Source of the DNA: Anaerolineae bacterium
GTDB lineage: Bacteria; Chloroflexota; Anaerolineae; UBA4142; SHND01
Length of the DNA: 64,000 nucleotides
Assembly: GCA_021463195.1 (NCBI GenBank)
Contig: JAJTXZ010000017.1
Location: forward strand, 1 to 64,000
Reading direction: 5' to 3'
Shown: positions 12,944-43,693 of the stretch, piece after piece
Position numbering within the stretch: position 1 is the stretch's first letter
Layout: every line of letters begins with the position of its first letter
Position numbers and translations under genes: made by a program
Notes under the pieces: model-generated
What the model saw: the letters and a program-made list of their open reading frames with translations, nothing else
Told to the model about the DNA's origin: nothing
Database searches by the model: none

Positions 12944-14584
12944 TCAGTCGCGCCATAAATCTCCGTGTGGATCAAAACGATGCAAAGCTTGTCGCTCTAC
13001 GTGATTTGGCAGCGGCAGCACGGCGATATCGCGCGCCACTTGCAAATCCCAGCCGCACGCGTCACGCGCGTTTTGGATTGTTGATTCGCCTCCAAATACC
13101 GCCGCGAGAATTAGCTCGCCGTTTATTTTTCGATACACGCCCCACTGTGTGATGACGGTGGACACGCGCGCGCCTAGCGACGTAATATAATTCACGCGCT
13201 CGACAAAACGTTGCCGCGCTTGCCGCGCGACGACGATAACTTCCGCCGCCGTGGATGCCACATCGTTCGCGCCGCCTGAACCCATCAGAAAACCGCCGTC
13301 GGGCAAACGCGTCGTGTTGAGGTTGCCCTGCCGGTCTACTTGCGCCGCGCCCAACACGCCAAGACAGCGCGCGCGTTCGCTCCCCACAAACATCCCCAAC
13401 ACAGTCAACGTGTCGGCGAGCATCGGCGCGGTGGGCACGTTGCGGAGCGCGAACAAGAATGGGTCGCCGGGCAAAGGTTGAAAGCCCGTCGCGCCCGCTT
13501 CGGTCAACAACGTCACCGTGATTCCTTGATTCTGCAACTGTGATTCCGCCAACCACGCGGCGAGGTGCGCCGCGCCGAGACCGCAGAGAATCGCGCCGTG
13601 TCCGCGTTCTCGAACCGCGCGAACGATTTCGCGCGCGGCGCCAAGAATCATTTTTTCAGCATCCGTAATTTTTTCTGTTGGAGACAGCAAAGGCAGAGGC
13701 GCGGGCGAAAAATTTTCGAGCGCGGTGAGTCGTTCAGGTCCGAGTTGGGCGACATACGCCGCATGGTCGCGGCAGTCGAGAATCCAATGTTGAATCCATT
13801 CCGCCTGTGTCTCTTGCGCGCGGGAAGCGGCGCGAGCTTGGAGAATGAACGGACGGTCTTCGACATAGCCGCCGTCGAATCCCAAGCAGCCCAACGGATG
13901 CGCGCCAAAGGGCGCGTGACACACCGCGCGGACGGCGTGCGCCGGGATGCGCGTCATTTGCGCGTGCGCGCGAATTTCGTCTGACGAAACAATTTTTTCA
14001 ACCGTAACGATTGCGCCTTCTCGGGCTGCCAACGCGCCAAACGCATTGCTCCCTAATGGCAGCGCAAGAATCGTGTTGCCCTCCGCGTCGGCGGCGTAAC
14101 CGTGCGTCAGCGTCAAATCGGGCGCAAGCGCGGAAACGAGTCCGACGTCGTCCAGCGAACGAAATTGCGCGCCAAGTTCATGTTCGAGCGAACTCCCGAC
14201 GATAGAGCGCGTCGGCAGAAAAGGCAGATTCAGCGCAGCGGCGAGCAAGCGCAAAGTAAAAGTGAGCATCGTCCAATTTTCCACCGTGACTCTGCCGCTG
14301 TTGATGGCGCGCTGAATTGCCGGATTCGGACCCGGAGCAGGATAGCCATCGCCGAGAAAAGCGGCGACGACACGCTGCGCCAAGCCTGCGGCGAGGAATG
14401 GGGCGGCAGAGGTGGCGCCGCCGGTGGAAAGCAGCAGCGTAAAGCGCGGGTCGCGCGCCGCGAACTGGCGAATGATTTCAAACAGCGCCGCGTTGGGGAA
14501 CGCCCACGCGCCGCCAAAATACAAACTCATGCCCGGACGGACAAAGGCGCGAATGGCATCCGCCAGCGGAATCACCTTGGACAT
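12944..14584 (-). CDS. Fused alpha-beta family I CoA-transferase (GctAB/IpdAB-like)
   Basis: A 546-residue protein that joins both subunits of a family I CoA-transferase. The alpha half (about 1-290) has YFGGAWAFPNAAL, VENWTMLTFTLRLLA and LPFLPTRS. The beta half (about 300-546) has an EXG motif in LLTEAGATGFQP, QVDRQGNLNTTRLPDGGFLMG and GSGGANDVAST. These are shared with glutaconate CoA-transferase and with IpdA/IpdB, which hydrolytically open the last steroid ring as a CoA ester. The two-gene version occurs at 38822-40523. The start ATG at 14584 overlaps the crotonase stop (TAATG). Seen: fusion and motifs. Inferred: CoA transfer to, or C-C hydrolysis of, a cyclic or dicarboxylic acyl-CoA. 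Confidence 0.88.
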   Translation of the reverse strand: MSKVIPLADAIRAFVRPGMSLYFGGAWAFPNAALFEIIRQFAARDPRFTLLLSTGGATSAAPFLAAGLAQRVVAAFLGDGYPAPGPNPAIQRAINSGRVTVENWTMLTFTLRLLAAALNLPFLPTRSIVGSSLEHELGAQFRSLDDVGLVSALAPDLTLTHGYAADAEGNTILALPLGSNAFGALAAREGAIVTVEKIVSSDEIRAHAQMTRIPAHAVRAVCHAPFGAHPLGCLGFDGGYVEDRPFILQARAASRAQETQAEWIQHWILDCRDHAAYVAQLGPERLTALENFSPAPLPLLSPTEKITDAEKMILGAAREIVRAVRERGHGAILCGLGAAHLAAWLAESQLQNQGITVTLLTEAGATGFQPLPGDPFLFALRNVPTAPMLADTLTVLGMFVGSERARCLGVLGAAQVDRQGNLNTTRLPDGGFLMGSGGANDVASTAAEVIVVARQARQRFVERVNYITSLGARVSTVITQWGVYRKINGELILAAVFGGESTIQNARDACGWDLQVARDIAVLPLPNHVERQALHRFDPHGDLWRD

Positions 14585-15381
14585 TATTTTCCCTGAAACT
14601 TTGGCTTGCGTTTTTCGGCAAAGGCGGCGATGCCCTCTTGCGCGTCTTCGCTCGTACGCAGCGGTTCGCCCAACAGATTTTCCAATCGCAATCCATCCGC
14701 CAACGGCAGCTCCAATCCTTTCCACACTGCCGTCTTGGCGGTTTGCACCGCAAGCGGCGCGTTGGCGCAAATTTCGTCCGCCAGCGCGACGGCGGCGTTC
14801 ATCAATTCGGCTTGCGGCGTCACTCGATTCACAAGCCCGATGCGATACGCTTCCGCCGCGCCGATTTTTTTCGCGGTGAAAATCATTTCGAGCGCGATAC
14901 CTACTGGCACAATGCGCGGCAGTCGCTGCGTGCCGCCCGCGCCAGGGATGATGCCGCGACTCGTTTCGGTCAAACCGAATTGCGCGTTCTCGGAGCAAAG
15001 ACGAATGTCGCACGCCAACGCGAGTTCCAATCCGCCGCCGAAACAATAACCGTTCACCGCCGCGATGATTGGCTTCCACACCTCCAGATTGCGAGTCAAT
15101 CCGCCCACACCGGGCTGCGTTTCGCCGCGCTGCCGTCGCTGCAGCGGAGTCAGCGCGCGATAAAATTCGCCAAGCGCGCGCAAATCGGCGCCCGCGCTAA
15201 AAGCCTTGTCCCCGGCGCCGGTGACGATCGCAACCCACAGTTCCGGATCGTCGCGAAAGCGCGTCCACGCTTCGCCTAGTTCACGGCTCGCGTCCAAATC
15301 CAGCGCGTTGTGAACTTGAGGGCGGTCTATGGTGATGACGACAATGCGTTGTTGGGTCTCGAATCGAATGGGCATAGTCAT
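14584..15381 (-). CDS. Enoyl-CoA hydratase/isomerase (crotonase)
   Basis: A 265-residue crotonase. The oxyanion-hole motifs are AFSAGADLRAL and NGYCFGGGLELALACDIR. Both acid/base positions of classical hydratases are kept: the glutamate in FGLTETSRGIIPGAGGT and the one in IALEMIFTAKK, so hydration of an enoyl-CoA is plausible. The C-terminal EGIAAFAEKRKPKF is the usual tail. It is followed by the fused CoA-transferase with a TAATG overlap and preceded by a repeat element. An insertion of about 10 residues after the first motif (around residues 75-90, RRQRGETQPGVG) is unusual. Part of the minus-strand operon 18724 to 11737. Confidence 0.9.
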   Translation of the reverse strand: MTMPIRFETQQRIVVITIDRPQVHNALDLDASRELGEAWTRFRDDPELWVAIVTGAGDKAFSAGADLRALGEFYRALTPLQRRQRGETQPGVGGLTRNLEVWKPIIAAVNGYCFGGGLELALACDIRLCSENAQFGLTETSRGIIPGAGGTQRLPRIVPVGIALEMIFTAKKIGAAEAYRIGLVNRVTPQAELMNAAVALADEICANAPLAVQTAKTAVWKGLELPLADGLRLENLLGEPLRTSEDAQEGIAAFAEKRKPKFQGK

Positions 15382-15528: not shown

Positions 15529-15551
15529 AGGGCAAGTTACAAACTTGCCCT
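15529..15551. repeat. Short palindrome supplying the DUF35 gene stop
   Basis: AGGGCAAGTT and its complement AACTTGCCCT are separated by 3 nt. The right arm runs into the TAG stop (15550-15552) of the DUF35 gene, so the element borders or provides its 3' end. Confidence 0.65.
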
Positions 15552-16506
15552 ACGCTGGTTGGAAATAAGCAAGATCGAGAATGTGTCCGCGCCGCGTTTC
15601 GGCAAAGACGGGCGCGACGCGCAGACCGATTCGCAGTTCATCGGCATTGGTCACATTGACGCGATGTACGAGCGCGGTATCCGCGCCATCGAGACGAATC
15701 AGCGCAAACGCAAGATTGTCCGTCGCGGCAAATGCGCCGAGCGTTCCGTTCGGTCCCACCTCGACCCAATCGCTCGTATCCACGAAACAACGCGGGCAAA
15801 AAGAGCGCGCGGGGACGAGCACGCGTTGACATGACGGACAGCGCGCCCCGAAAATTTTTTTCTCGTCGCGCAGCGCAATCAAGAAACGGCTCGCCGCTTT
15901 TCCCGCCGCATAATTGAACGAAAGATTTACTCCGGCGGTGATGAAAAGAGATTGGGGATTGGAGATTGGAGAATGGAGATTAGAGATTGGAGATTGGAGC
16001 TTGGAACTTGAAGCTTGCGAGCTTGCCGCTTGCGCGTCGCGTTCCGCGATTGGCGATATGCTCGCAAAGTGCGCGATGTCGTTCAACGTCCCCTTGCGTT
16101 CGGCGCGCCATACGGCTTGGACGCGCATTCCGATTTGCAATTTCGCCGGGTCGTTCTCGGCAAGATAATGATTGAGCGTCGTGTCCGCGCCGTCGAGTTG
16201 AATCAACGCCATGCCATAAGGCGTGGGGCGCGGCTGCCCGGTGGTTGGGTCAATGATTGGCGTGTGAACGATGGTAAACGCGCGCACCGTGCCGCTGTCC
16301 TTGACCTCGACCCACTCGCGCAATTCGGCGTGGCAGTTACCACAGACCGGACGCGGCGGCAGATAGACGCGCCTGCAAATGGGGCAGCGCAAGCCGAGCA
16401 AACGTTGTTCGTCACGCAGCGCGCGAATGAACTCGGCAAAATACCAACTCGCGCCATAGCGCCACGCGAGGGTCATGGTGTGCGAAATTTTCAACAGTTC
16501 AGTCAT
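15550..16506 (-). CDS. Tandem DUF35 (zinc-ribbon/OB-fold) protein, thiolase partner
   Basis: A 318-residue protein with two complete DUF35 units. Unit 1 (about 30-150) has rubredoxin-like cysteines CPIC...CGNC, then an OB-fold with VRAFTIVHTPI. Unit 2 (about 200-318) has CPSC...CPRC and GAFAATDNLAFALIRLDG. The linker (about 165-190) reads SKLQSPISNLHSPISNPQS and is encoded by the GATTGGAGATTGGA repeat. DUF35 proteins bind thiolase-like enzymes; in steroid side-chain degradation the DUF35 part of ChsH2 pairs with the Ltp2 thiolase to make a retro-aldolase. Two thiolase-like genes lie immediately upstream, and the start overlaps the first by ATGA (16503-16506). Single DUF35 proteins are about 130-150 residues, so this is a fusion. 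Confidence 0.88.
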   Translation of the reverse strand: MTELLKISHTMTLAWRYGASWYFAEFIRALRDEQRLLGLRCPICRRVYLPPRPVCGNCHAELREWVEVKDSGTVRAFTIVHTPIIDPTTGQPRPTPYGMALIQLDGADTTLNHYLAENDPAKLQIGMRVQAVWRAERKGTLNDIAHFASISPIAERDAQAASSQASSSKLQSPISNLHSPISNPQSLFITAGVNLSFNYAAGKAASRFLIALRDEKKIFGARCPSCQRVLVPARSFCPRCFVDTSDWVEVGPNGTLGAFAATDNLAFALIRLDGADTALVHRVNVTNADELRIGLRVAPVFAETRRGHILDLAYFQPA

Positions 16507-17657
16507 TTGTCTGCGCTCAAGATGATTACGTCGCTCCAGGCATAGACGCCATAGCCGGTCGCCAACGCGAGACGAACGTCGGGGATTTGATGTGCGCCCG
16601 CGCGCTCCATCACTTGCAGCGCGGCTTCCGCGACGCGAATGACTCCCGACGCGCCGACCGGATTTGTGGACAAGACACCGCCCGAAGGATTCACCGGCAG
16701 CTCGCCGCTCATCTCGGTCACGCCGTCGTCAATCAATTTTCCGGCGTCGCCCTCCGCGCAAAAACCCAGCGCTTCGTACCACGCGAGTTCCGCGTAACTC
16801 ACCGGCTCGTAAATTTCCGCGACGTCAAATTGTTTCAACGGTTCGGTGATGCCGACGCGTTGATACGCTGCGCGCGCCGCATCGCGCAGCGTCCGCATCG
16901 TAACCAAGCGTCGGTCCAAATCGCCGATGTACGGTTGGTCGTGACGCGTCACGGCGGCGCGCACCCACGCCGGGCGCGCGCACAATTTTTCCGCGACGCC
17001 TTGCGCGGCGTACACAATCGCGCACGCGCCGTCCGATTGTGGACACATGTCGAGCAGATGAACGGGGTCCGCCAACATCCGCGAATTCAGCACCTGTTCG
17101 ACGGTGAGGTCCGGCATCTGCAAATGCGCGTACGGATTTTTCGCCGCGTTGCGCCGCGCTTTGACCGCGACCTTTGCGGCTTGCGTCGGCGTGACGCCGC
17201 GTTCGGCAGCGTACTGCGAAATCGAGAGCGCGAAATTTCCCACCGCGCCCGATGCGACGCTGCGGTCCCACAGCGGGTCCACCAGCGCCATTCCCGTTTG
17301 CGTCGCGCCCTCCGAATGTTTCTCCCAGCCGACCACCAGCACAATGTCGAATAATCCTGACGCGCATTGATGATAACCCGCGATGCACGCCGACGTTCCC
17401 GACGTGCCGCCCGTCGCAATCTTGAGCGTCGGCTTGAGATAACCGCCCGCGCCTTCGCCCACCCACATTTCCGGCAGCGCGCGTCCCTCGAACAATTCCA
17501 TATTCGCCAGCACGACCGCGTCCACATCGCGCAGCGTGATGCCCGCGTCCGCCAGCGCGCGCGTCGCGGCTTGGCGCACGAGTTCGGCTTGACTCGCATC
17601 ATCGCGCGCTTTGACGTGCTTTGTCTGTCCCGCGCCAATAATGGCTGTGTTTCTCAT
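16503..17657 (-). CDS. SCP2/Ltp-type thiolase
   Basis: A 384-residue thiolase-fold enzyme of the lipid-transfer-protein/SCP2 group. GTSGTSACIAGYHQCASG contains the candidate nucleophilic cysteines. EIYEPVSYAELAWYEALGF and NPSGGVLSTNPVGASGVIR carry the C-terminal active-site loop typical of the group. Members either cleave 3-ketoacyl-CoA or, with a DUF35 partner, act as retro-aldolases on beta-hydroxyacyl-CoA. The overlap (ATGA) with the double DUF35 gene supports a physical complex. Which reaction occurs cannot be told from sequence. It lies between two related genes in the minus-strand operon. Confidence 0.88.
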   Translation of the reverse strand: MRNTAIIGAGQTKHVKARDDASQAELVRQAATRALADAGITLRDVDAVVLANMELFEGRALPEMWVGEGAGGYLKPTLKIATGGTSGTSACIAGYHQCASGLFDIVLVVGWEKHSEGATQTGMALVDPLWDRSVASGAVGNFALSISQYAAERGVTPTQAAKVAVKARRNAAKNPYAHLQMPDLTVEQVLNSRMLADPVHLLDMCPQSDGACAIVYAAQGVAEKLCARPAWVRAAVTRHDQPYIGDLDRRLVTMRTLRDAARAAYQRVGITEPLKQFDVAEIYEPVSYAELAWYEALGFCAEGDAGKLIDDGVTEMSGELPVNPSGGVLSTNPVGASGVIRVAEAALQVMERAGAHQIPDVRLALATGYGVYAWSDVIILSADK

Positions 17658-17687
17658 ATCGCGTATCGTGTATCACAAATCACAACT

Positions 17688-17772
17688 CGCCACTCGCAAC
17701 TCGCCACTATCGCACTATCTCATTATCTCACTATTGCACTATCGCACGATCTCACTATCGCACTATCCGCTA
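17688..17772. repeat. CACTATCG/CTCACTAT tandem repeat tract
   Basis: Units such as TCGCACTATC and TCTCACTATC repeat here between the two thiolase genes and run into the 3' end of the upstream one (stop at 17723). Similar CACTATCG units occur at 21025-21060. Confidence 0.8.
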
Positions 17773-18724
17773 TTACGACGGCTTGACCTTGCCCGCACGG
17801 ACCCCAACAACCGTGCGCGAGCGCGGTCCCCGGTTTTTCGCGCAAACGCAAAACAATTTCAATCAAACGGTCCAACCCAGCGACAAACGGCGGCACACCG
17901 CGCGCGAGTCCGCCCGACAAATTGAGATTTGAAAAATCGGCTAGCCCAAGCGCGCGCGCCCACAATACGCGTTGATAATCGAAATGCTCGGAAATTTCTG
18001 CCCACGCGAGTTCGCGTTTGGGGTCGTTGAGTTTCGCCATTGAAAACGCGCGGCGCGCGGCATCGCGTAACGCCGGCGCGTCGGTCAAATCTCTGTCGCC
18101 CAGATAATGTTCGTCGAGCGCCCAACCCATTCCAATCAACTGCGGATTAAGGCGGTTTACTATTTGGTTTAAGGCGAGAGACCTTTCGGGTCTCCGAAAA
18201 CCCGAAAGGTCTGTCTCGGATGCGCGCGCGAGGATGACCGCCGCTGCGCCGTCGGCGGGAGGACGTTCGAGTGGAGGGGGAAGGGAAAAGGCGGAAGCTT
18301 GTAATGCGGCAGCGGCAGCATCGTCCAGTCCAAGCGGTTGTTGATAGATAGGGTCAAAAGTCCAATTTGAGATGGCGGCGGAATCACCCATCGAACCTTT
18401 GCAGTGCGCGACAACGAGGACGACGTTGTACGCGCCCGCGAGAATGGACATTGCGCCGTGACACGCGGCGAGCAAGCCATCGCCCGCGACGCGCGCCTCG
18501 GGCTGCATGACCGCGCCGACGACTTCGGTGATGGCGATATTCGACGCGGTCAGTCCGTCCCACAAATCCACCGACGCAGTGACGCGCGCATCCACATCTT
18601 GCATCGTCAATTCGGCATCGGCGAGCGCGGCTTGCGTCGCTACGTGAACCATCTCTGGAATTGAGACGCCGGGTTTTGGAGCATAATCCGTTCGTCCAAC
18701 GCCCAAAATCGTGATTGGCTGCAT
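17723..18724 (-). CDS. Second SCP2-type thiolase-like protein
   Basis: A 333-residue thiolase-fold protein, first gene of the minus-strand operon. The N-terminus ITILGVGRTDYAPKPG is family-like, AACHGAMSILAGAYN holds the candidate active cysteine, and GCWGPCGQGQAVVI is a C-terminal cysteine motif. It is shorter than the 384-residue neighbour. Two oddities are visible. A palindromic repeat (18179-18212) is inserted in frame and encodes about ETDLSGFRRPERS. The last dozen residues (DSAIVRSCDSAIVR) come from the CACTATCG tract. The two thiolases may form a heteromer with the double DUF35 protein (inference). Activity of this insertion-bearing copy is uncertain. Confidence 0.78.
   Translation of the reverse strand: MQPITILGVGRTDYAPKPGVSIPEMVHVATQAALADAELTMQDVDARVTASVDLWDGLTASNIAITEVVGAVMQPEARVAGDGLLAACHGAMSILAGAYNVVLVVAHCKGSMGDSAAISNWTFDPIYQQPLGLDDAAAAALQASAFSLPPPLERPPADGAAAVILARASETDLSGFRRPERSLALNQIVNRLNPQLIGMGWALDEHYLGDRDLTDAPALRDAARRAFSMAKLNDPKRELAWAEISEHFDYQRVLWARALGLADFSNLNLSGGLARGVPPFVAGLDRLIEIVLRLREKPGTALAHGCWGPCGQGQAVVIADSAIVRSCDSAIVR
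18179..18212. repeat. Palindromic AGACCTTTCGGGT element inside a coding region
   Basis: A 13-bp perfect inverted repeat (AGACCTTTCGGGT / ACCCGAAAGGTCT, 8-nt loop) lies within the thiolase-like gene without breaking its frame. A second copy of the element is intergenic at 31639-31672. Confidence 0.85.
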
Positions 18725-20113: not shown

Positions 20114-20971
20114 TTGGACAAGTTGATTCTCACCGCCGCGCTGACCGGCGCGCAGCAAGGCAAAGCGGCGAATCCGCAGCTGCCCGAACAGCCGGACGAA
20201 ATTATTCAGCAGGCGCTTGAATGTTGGCGCGCGGGCGCGGCAATCGTTCATCTTCACGCGCGCGACGCGCGCGGCAAGGCGACTTCGGATGCGAAAATTT
20301 TTCGCCGCATCGTCGAAGGAATCCGCGCGGCGGGCTGCGATGTTGTCATCAATCTCACGACCGGCGGCGCGATTGCCGGACTACCGCTGACTGAACGCAT
20401 CGCGGTTGTGCCAGAGCTCAAGCCAGAGATTGCGTCGTTCAGCGTCGGCGCGGCGATGGTCGGACGATACGACGCGGCAAAGAAAAAATGGGCGCGCGAT
20501 TTTACAATGCCGATTTCTTATGCCGAGATGGAGATTATCGCGCGGACGATGTTGGAAAACGGCGTGCGCCCGGAACTCGAAGTGTACGACGCGGGGATGT
20601 TGAACAATGTCGCAATCTTGCGCGAGCAGGGGTGGTTGAGCGATCCGCTCTGGATCAATTTCGTGATGGGCATTCACGGTCAGGTGACGGCGGCGACGCC
20701 GAAAAATCTTTTGCATCTCGTCGAAAATTTGCCGGCGGACGCGTTGTGGCTCGTAAGCGCGATCGGCGGACGGGCGCACTGGGCGATGGCGGCGCTGGCG
20801 ATGGCAATGGGCGGTCACGTCCGCACCGGACTCGAAGATAATGTTTACCTCGAACGCGGCGTCTTGGCGAGCGGCAACGCGCAGTTGGTGGAAAAGATGA
20901 TTCGTTTGGCGCGCGACATCGGGCGCGAAATCGCGACGCCGAACGAGGCGCGCGCGTTGTTGAAAATCTGA
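20114..20971 (+). CDS. Beta-keto acid cleavage enzyme (BKACE, DUF849)
   Basis: A 285-residue TIM-barrel enzyme. BKACE proteins condense a beta-keto acid with acetyl-CoA and split it into acetoacetate and a new acyl-CoA. Family marks are LILTAALTGA at the N-terminus, IVHLHARDARGK (zinc-binding histidines), VVINLTTGG and ELEVYDAGML. I placed the start at TTG 20114, which has GGAGG 7 nt upstream and begins where the family begins; the open frame extends 26 codons further 5' only through low-complexity sequence. Curiously, a TATAAT (20108-20113) directly abuts this TTG. The gene fits the operon by supplying acyl-CoA from a keto acid. Confidence 0.85.
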   Translation: MDKLILTAALTGAQQGKAANPQLPEQPDEIIQQALECWRAGAAIVHLHARDARGKATSDAKIFRRIVEGIRAAGCDVVINLTTGGAIAGLPLTERIAVVPELKPEIASFSVGAAMVGRYDAAKKKWARDFTMPISYAEMEIIARTMLENGVRPELEVYDAGMLNNVAILREQGWLSDPLWINFVMGIHGQVTAATPKNLLHLVENLPADALWLVSAIGGRAHWAMAALAMAMGGHVRTGLEDNVYLERGVLASGNAQLVEKMIRLARDIGREIATPNEARALLKI

Positions 20972-21086
20972 AATTGAAGATTGGAGATTGGAAATTGGAA
21001 ATTGGAAATTGGAAATCGCCAATCGTCACTATCGCACTATCGCACTATCGCACTATCACACTGAACCGCAAATCAAAAATCAAAAA
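20972..21086. repeat. GGAGATTGGAAATT and CACTATCG tandem repeats
   Basis: The gap after the BKACE gene is filled with GATTGGAAATTGG units (about 20985-21020), then TATCGCACTA units (21025-21058), then AATCAAAAATCAAAAATC. The first ATG of the next gene follows directly, without a clear ribosome site. Confidence 0.8.
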
Positions 21087-25999: not shown

Positions 26000-26893
26000 A
26001 TGAGCGAATCTCCAGTCTCTGATCTACGATCTACGATCTCCAATCCCCAATCTCCAATCGGCGCGATTGACGCATGGGCATCGTGCATCACGCCAGAGGC
26101 GGCAAAACATTGGCCCCCCGAGTTCCGACACGTCTTTGACCGCTATCGCGCGCCGGCGGGGATTTTGGAGGGGATGAGCATCGAGACGATGCTGGCAGAG
26201 ATGGACGCGGCCGGCGTGGACATGGCGGTGTTGTCGGCGTTTGTTTATCAAGGCGTGCAAGTGACGAACGACATGGTGGCGGCGTGGGTGAAACAGTATC
26301 CCAAAAAATTCGTCGGCTGCGGCACGGTGGACCCGCGCGGCAAACCGATGCAAGTGTTGGACGAGATCAAGCGGATGGTGAACGAACTCGGGCTGATTGC
26401 TTTGCGGCTCGAACCTTACGCCTATGGCGACGGCGTGCGCGGGCTGCCGCCGACCGACCGCGCGTATTGGCCCATTTATGCCAAATGCTGCGAGTTGAAC
26501 ATCCCCGTCGCGCTGCAAGTGGGGCATACCGGTCCCCTGCTCCCTTCCGAAGCGGGTCGCCCGATTTATCTGGACGAAGTGGCGCTGGCATTTCCCGAAC
26601 TGAAAATCATCGGCGCGCATTTGGGGCAGCCGTGGCACGAAGAGATGATGATTCTCGCGTGGAAACATCCGAACGTCTATATTGACACATCGGCGCGTCC
26701 GGCGAAACGTTGGCCCGAATCGTTCGTGGAATTTACGCGCGGCTGGGGGCAGGACAAAGTATTGTGGGCGACGGACTATCCGCTCATCTCGTTTGAACGC
26801 TGTCTGGAGGATATAGATGAATTAGGTTTCGATCCCGCGGTAAAGCGCAAGCTGCTCCGCGACAACGCAATACAGGTGTTTGGAATCAAGTAA
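26000..26893 (+). CDS. Amidohydrolase family 2 (ACMSD-like TIM barrel)
   Basis: A 297-residue metal-dependent hydrolase or decarboxylase of the PF04909 type. ALQVGHTGPLLPSEAG and IIGAHLGQPWHEEMMILAWKHPNVYIDTS hold the conserved barrel histidines, and VLWATDYPLISFE has the late aspartate. Members decarboxylate or hydrolyse aromatic and cyclic acids. The natural family start would be near IDAWAS (residue 22). The preceding 20 residues (ESPVSDLRSTISNPQSPIG) come from a GATC/CCAATC repeat, so the N-terminus is repeat-derived. It lies between acyl-CoA dehydrogenase and acyl-CoA ligase genes. Confidence 0.85.
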   Translation: MSESPVSDLRSTISNPQSPIGAIDAWASCITPEAAKHWPPEFRHVFDRYRAPAGILEGMSIETMLAEMDAAGVDMAVLSAFVYQGVQVTNDMVAAWVKQYPKKFVGCGTVDPRGKPMQVLDEIKRMVNELGLIALRLEPYAYGDGVRGLPPTDRAYWPIYAKCCELNIPVALQVGHTGPLLPSEAGRPIYLDEVALAFPELKIIGAHLGQPWHEEMMILAWKHPNVYIDTSARPAKRWPESFVEFTRGWGQDKVLWATDYPLISFERCLEDIDELGFDPAVKRKLLRDNAIQVFGIK

Positions 26894-43349: not shown

Positions 43350-43693
43350 ACAACCATCCCCAAACGCTGCAAACGTTCGCGCCCCTTGGCGGTCAAACGA
43401 TTTTTCGTCCACGGCGGATCCCACACGATTTCCATTTGCACGTTCGCGACGCCCGGCTCTTGGAGCAAGCGCGCGCGAATGTCGTCCACGATAAAGTGCA
43501 TGCACGGGCAGCCCATTGCCGTAAAGGTGAGCTGCACGCAAACGGTTTCGCCCTCGCGCTGCAAGCCGTAAATTAATCCCATATCCACCACGCTCAACGG
43601 AAATTCGGGGTCGGTTACGTCTTGGAGCGCCGTCCACAAGGATTGCGTTTCAGGAGATTGGAGATTGGAGATTGGGGACTGGAGATTGGTCAT
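43346..43693 (-). CDS. PaaD N-terminal DUF59 (MIP18) domain protein
   Basis: A 115-residue DUF59 protein. DPEFPLSVVDMGLIYGL, TAMGCPCMHFIVDDIR (with the conserved cysteine motif GCPC) and VWDPPWTKNRLTAKGRERL match the first two-thirds of PaaD (DPEIP...SGCPA...W...). It ends at RLQRLGMVV, where PaaD would continue into the zinc ribbon; that ribbon is found as the separate gene at 42039-42281. The first 12 residues (NLQSPISNLQSPET) are coded by the GATTGGAGATTGG repeat. ATGA overlaps with PaaA upstream and PaaB downstream. It probably helps mature the oxygenase cluster. Confidence 0.85.
   Translation of the reverse strand: MTNLQSPISNLQSPETQSLWTALQDVTDPEFPLSVVDMGLIYGLQREGETVCVQLTFTAMGCPCMHFIVDDIRARLLQEPGVANVQMEIVWDPPWTKNRLTAKGRERLQRLGMVV

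Follow-up and report, generated by a model that had tools for sequence, protein, structure and literature searches.

A heptanucleotide repeat tract at the junction of two DUF35 units in an Anaerolineae bacterium, and its probable role in their fusion

A double DUF35 reading frame with a repeat-coded linker

On the minus strand of the window, the stretch of 64,000 nucleotides analyzed here, an open reading frame (ORF) of 318 aa runs from an ATG start without an internal stop. It follows, in the same operon, the genes for two thiolase-like proteins, Thl2 and Thl1, and its ATG overlaps the stop codon of Thl1 (ATGA). The ORF comprises the following features.

15550..16506, minus strand: double-DUF35 fused ORF, 318 aa
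16054..16506, minus strand: DUF35 unit A, residues 1-151, zinc ribbon and OB fold (Pfam; 73-86% identity to separate A genes of the same genus)
15946..16053, minus strand: lineage-specific linker, residues 152-187, in place of the A stop and B start (DNA alignment against three relatives; pLDDT)
15948..16025, minus strand: degenerate heptamer array, AATCTCC on the coding strand and GGAGATT on the plus strand (TRF and repeat search)
15550..15945, minus strand: DUF35 unit B, residues 188-318 and stop, zinc ribbon and OB fold (58-70% identity to separate B genes; no in-frame ATG)

The preliminary description of this DNA had proposed two complete DUF35 units, each with its own zinc ribbon, and this is borne out by Pfam, cysteine positions, homologues, and structural models. 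Pfam detects zf-ChsH2 twice in the ORF, and four zinc-ribbon cysteines are present in each unit (C41/C44/C55/C58 in A and C223/C226/C237/C240 in B). OB_ChsH2_C is matched once, in the first half, at 76.8 bits; the OB fold of unit B has no separate Pfam match and is evident from the 58-70% identical single-unit homologues and from OB strands in AlphaFold models. Two separate AlphaFold models were used, neither with full alignment depth on both halves, because MAFFT with unmodified sequences aligned B homologues onto the A half. The models contain two DUF35 folds, with pLDDT below 50 for linker residues 165-202, which predicts that the linker is disordered. The Foldseek matches in the PDB are DUF35 subunits from complexes of thiolase type, namely, those of Ltp2-ChsH2, archaeal thiolase/HMGCS, PhlABC, BbsAB, and Sal-Shy.

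The core of the heptamer array (15948-16005) holds 8.3 copies with 86% matches according to TRF, and more divergent copies continue to 16025, for a total of about 78 bp. The same or a closely similar unit recurs in the window at 20970-21016, 26007-26059, and 43653-43689. Tracts of at least four units were found three times in the window versus never in 20 simulated sequences of 64 kb (first-order Markov model of the window); the tract is therefore not a product of chance. These results confirm the earlier proposal of a linker coded by a repeat that also occurs elsewhere, but the extent originally quoted for it does not hold. Relatives likewise lack a lineage-specific ISPIAERDAQAASSQASSS that precedes the repeat-coded part; counted with it, the new linker is the longer stretch of about residues 152-187.

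The A/B junction in relatives and the fate of unit B

In relatives of the same genus, A and B are separate, slightly overlapping genes that follow the same two thiolase-like genes. Single DUF35 genes, which the preliminary description had suggested looking for at this position, are thus present in two paralogous locus copies of the groundwater Chloroflexota MAG G001 (JACQWQ01) and in a second genome, G002, and the linker is absent from these homologues. In G002, A ends with ..HFTELTDE and a stop, B starts with MNDDFVTAGVNL, and the two genes share an 8-bp stop/start overlap, ATGAATGA, in different frames. The tract in the window lies exactly where relatives have the A stop and the B ATG. Both G001 copies are likewise unfused, with A and B in different frames: the junction of copy C273 contains a local expansion of another heptamer, of the AACAATG type, and in copy C177 repeat-like DNA lengthens the N terminus of B without fusion, B keeping its own ATG. 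Three of the four same-genus copies thus have repeats at this junction, which makes it a hot spot, and the frames are joined only in the window allele. In the DUF35-B gene of C177 (L025, 7868-8482), moreover, a short segment, ADTALVHFIGE, is present in four tandem copies, and another loop contains an insert.

Beyond the genus, four separate genes keep the order Thl2-Thl1-DUF35A-DUF35B in 11 additional genomes of the class and one alphaproteobacterial MAG; a twelfth class locus (G053), near a contig end, has one DUF35 gene. Gene order on both sides is alike in relatives. Could the double protein nevertheless be the old and conserved form, and the separate genes its fission products? We found no point in support of this idea and consider it extremely improbable, given that A and B are separate genes in 15 of 15 other modules examined, the alphaproteobacterial one included, and that a search of 400 sampled genomes of the phylum (match over both units, E <= 1e-20) returned no stop-free double DUF35 other than that of the window. 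The same search yielded no instance of the fused layout with an unrelated linker, the finding that would have counted against a repeat-made junction. The alphaproteobacterial genome, Arabian10_MAG_43 (L029), has the same module with a Thl1 that is 73% identical, which suggests horizontal transfer.

The fused allele is known from one assembly, and in it the former start of B, an ATG just before FITAGVNL in relatives, is gone. Unit B has no in-frame ATG and none near the former start; the nearest candidate start codons are TTG141, which lies in A, and TTG209, from which translation would omit the first 20 conserved residues of B. If B is functional, it must therefore be made from the start of A, with re-initiation at TTG209 as a possible additional route. 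Such a loss could also mean that the fusion was accidental, the tract having destroyed the B start and left B to decay as a passenger or an early pseudogene. We estimated dN/dS from Nei-Gojobori counts against a parsimony ancestor and obtained 0.145 for A and 0.254 for B on the window branch, compared with 0.12-0.13 for A and 0.18-0.22 for B on the G001 branches. The faster rate of B than of A on the window branch is what decay would predict, as is the occurrence of the fused form in a single genome. However, B is free of stops across 131 codons, retains all four zinc cysteines, and has a dN/dS well under 1 and close to the values of the unfused branches; we therefore regard decay as unlikely. 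Both halves are under purifying selection on the window branch, which covers all time since the split from G001, including the time before fusion, and thus is no proof of constraint after it.

A stop-free heptamer as a probable frame-neutral bridge

Since 7 is not divisible by 3, a tandem tract of 7-bp units leaves either all three frames of a strand open or none of them. An AATCTCC tract encodes the same cyclic heptapeptide, NLQSPIS, in all three frames, and its complement encodes GDWRLEI; AATCTCC belongs to the 592 of 1,172 heptamer classes that are open on both strands. Such a stop-free heptamer is therefore able to bridge the frames of A and B.

We propose that the ancestor had an operon in which two thiolase-like genes were followed by DUF35 genes A and B with overlapping stop and start codons. 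In the line leading to this genome, an AATCTCC-family tract would have been inserted or expanded at the A/B junction, replacing the A stop and the B ATG. Being stop free, the tract would bridge two frames, with a one-in-three chance that B lands in the frame of A. The product would be one protein, in which a flexible linker of about 36 residues, rich in Ser, Pro, Gln, and Asn, tethers two DUF35 units and the A:B stoichiometry is fixed at 1:1; it most likely takes over from both former subunits, providing a scaffold and the acyl-CoA site to the neighboring pair of thiolase-fold proteins. The repeat-mediated gene fusion that the preliminary description had raised as a possibility is well supported by the unfused same-genus homologues, the absence of the linker there, and the position of the tract at the stop/start overlap. 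We assign a probability of roughly 0.8 to a repeat-tract fusion of ancestral A and B into one protein with tethered units; its expression, age, and role in a thiolase complex are what we infer from this arrangement.

The joined frame could instead be an artifact of assembly or consensus calling, the true number of heptamer copies putting A and B out of frame as in G001 copy C177. Tandem repeats are a known cause of assembly errors (PMC6868369), the genome is a draft of 143 contigs, and an error of one unit in copy number would shift the frame. On the other hand, the array consists of degenerate units and, at only about 78 bp, could be spanned by single reads. Moreover, no B ATG occurs near the former start even in another frame, unlike in C177, and the heptamer is in frame within many unrelated genes of the same genome. 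We judge an artifact to be quite unlikely, somewhat more so than decay of unit B.

The AATCTCC family extends far beyond this junction. Allowing up to 2 mismatches, a 21-mer of the unit matches the genome 335 times (175 + 160) versus 0 times for the reversed control. The family is also dense in G001, G003, and G005, and it is rare in G002 (3 matches), where the junction stays clean. Using a 464-kb sample and a home-made gene finder, we located 21 tracts, of which 9 are intergenic although intergenic DNA makes up 11% of the sequence (p = 2e-4). Predicted genes hold the remaining 12, and 10 of these read in the NLQSPIS sense (p = 0.04). In-frame tracts occur in PurH, UvrC, MutL, an E2 acyltransferase, a RecQ-phosphoribosyltransferase, a hybrid histidine kinase, and an FAD/GcvT protein (L056, L044, L094, L102, L103, L049, and L057, respectively). 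The tract of the E2 acyltransferase sits between the lipoyl and E3-binding domains, and alignments of same-genus UvrC and PurH proteins contain hypervariable linkers in which heptamer tracts are gained and lost between species. We considered the RecQ-phosphoribosyltransferase, with its heptamer linker, as a second repeat-made fusion and rejected it: because relatives carry the same two-part protein (G001, G003, G004, and G005; the linker reads continuously in G001, G004, and G005 and is not resolved in G003), it is an older fusion with a repeat-expanded linker. An amidohydrolase ORF (window 26000-26059) starts inside an AATCTCC tract (MSESPVSDLRSTISNPQSPIG..); its N terminus may therefore be repeat made, or its start misplaced.

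Taken more broadly, stop-free heptamer tracts might be a general, frame-neutral source of protein linkers in this genus: they would insert or expand time and again at domain borders and gene junctions, lengthening the linkers of core proteins in a lineage-specific manner and occasionally fusing genes. Slippage by a single unit, which moves the frame by one, might then switch the A-B fusion on or off. We offer this extension tentatively, as a possibility that is less likely to be right than wrong.

Parts of this arrangement have precedents. In Mycobacterium tuberculosis and M. bovis, ORF fusion and fission are driven by microsatellites (PMC1501019); as here, adjacent and often overlapping genes become one ORF when a short tandem repeat changes and thereby eliminates a stop or alters the frame. 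Those tracts are short, have very short units, change by one or a few, and leave no linker, whereas here the junction has given way to about 78 bp of a 7-bp unit that itself encodes the linker. Borg elements (PMC9879509) similarly contain genome-wide tandem repeats, both intergenic and within ORFs, that give disordered amino-acid repeats. However, Borg repeats are perfect amino-acid repeats in archaeal extrachromosomal elements, in contrast to the degenerate heptamers of a bacterial genome described here, one of which fuses two genes. Relative to these two precedents, the new element is a heptamer tract that joins genes and also provides the linker between them. Abundant, dispersed heptamer arrays favoring gene borders are known from Beggiatoaceae and Cyanobacteria (TAACTGA; PMC4679880) and from Xanthomonas and Nostoc (GGGAATC; PMC4692102). 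TAACTGA has stops in all three frames of one orientation and thus ends ORFs (PMC4679880), whereas AATCTCC is stop free on both strands and lies in frame within genes in about half of the sampled cases. We found no report of AATCTCC heptamers in Chloroflexota in the open-licence part of PubMed Central.

Gene fusions are mostly inferred long after the event; at this locus, the unfused neighbors, the junction repeat, and the resulting linker are all visible inside one genus. The underlying rule is that a tandem unit with a length not divisible by 3 leaves either every frame of a strand open or no frame, which makes stop-free heptamers ready-made linkers; it could be tested in repeat-rich genomes.

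The putative thiolase-like partners

The two genes upstream of the fused ORF, and the repeats within them, are as follows.

16503..17657, minus strand: Thl1, thiolase fold, Gly at the position of the nucleophilic Cys, Tyr-Glu-Pro-Val at the HDCF/YDHF position
17723..18724, minus strand: Thl2, divergent thiolase-fold partner with a SEHF motif and without the catalytic Tyr; its C terminus and one internal stretch are altered by repeats
17705..17767: octamer tandem array (CACTATCG) coding the C-terminal tail of Thl2, SAIVRSCDSAIVR; relatives end earlier
18176..18215: palindromic repeat with 16-nt arms (AGACCTTTCGGGT), in frame in Thl2 (..ETDLSGFRRPERSLALNQ..) and absent from homologues

With motif roles (YDHF/YDCY and nucleophile) assigned as in PMC12329534, Thl1 has Gly for the nucleophilic Cys and keeps the Tyr at the first YDHF/YDCY position, like the retro-aldolases Ltp2 and Sal; an equivalent of the second catalytic acid (Tyr344 or Cys304) is not evident in it. 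GGTSG in place of ACASG, together with YEPV at the motif, is found in all Thl1 proteins of the genus and in that of the alphaproteobacterial MAG, and YDPF occurs in distant modules. Thl2 lacks both the motif Tyr and the nucleophilic Cys and has no relative in the PDB by sequence. Thl1 and Thl2, conserved as a pair (window 16503-18724; modules L024-L026, L029, and L060-L070), may together form a retro-aldolase-like heteromer in which one partner is degenerate.

Thiolase-fold dimers are bound by DUF35 proteins, which can also affect the shape of the active sites in these dimers (PMC12329534), and genes for subunits of heteromeric complexes are overrepresented among neighboring genes with short overlaps (PMC10666635). 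The A and B genes overlapped ancestrally, and the DUF35-thiolase neighborhood is conserved across modules in gene order. As in Ltp2-ChsH2, Sal-Shy, BbsAB, PhlACB, and archaeal thiolase/HMGCS/DUF35, a zinc ribbon plus OB fold is encoded beside thiolase-fold proteins; here, however, there are two DUF35 units per chain, whereas those complexes have a single DUF35 subunit or a DUF35 domain on a hydratase subunit. The arrangement that we consider likeliest is a complex of Thl1 and Thl2 in which A and B, now in one chain, supply the two DUF35 parts, a pairing that we infer. The original suggestion that each DUF35 unit would serve one of the thiolase-like proteins is plausible and fits both the conserved four-gene module and the known DUF35-thiolase complexes.

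Elsewhere in the window, at 12944-14587, two CoA-transferase domains lie in one ORF of 547 aa, which adjoins an EchA19-like hydratase. The CoA-transferase and the hydratase suggest an acyl-CoA degradation cluster, possibly for steroid-like or alicyclic substrates. The palindrome within Thl2 resembles palindromic elements that insert in coding genes; its arm is present in 70 copies in this genome and 68 in G001, compared with 0 for the reversed control.
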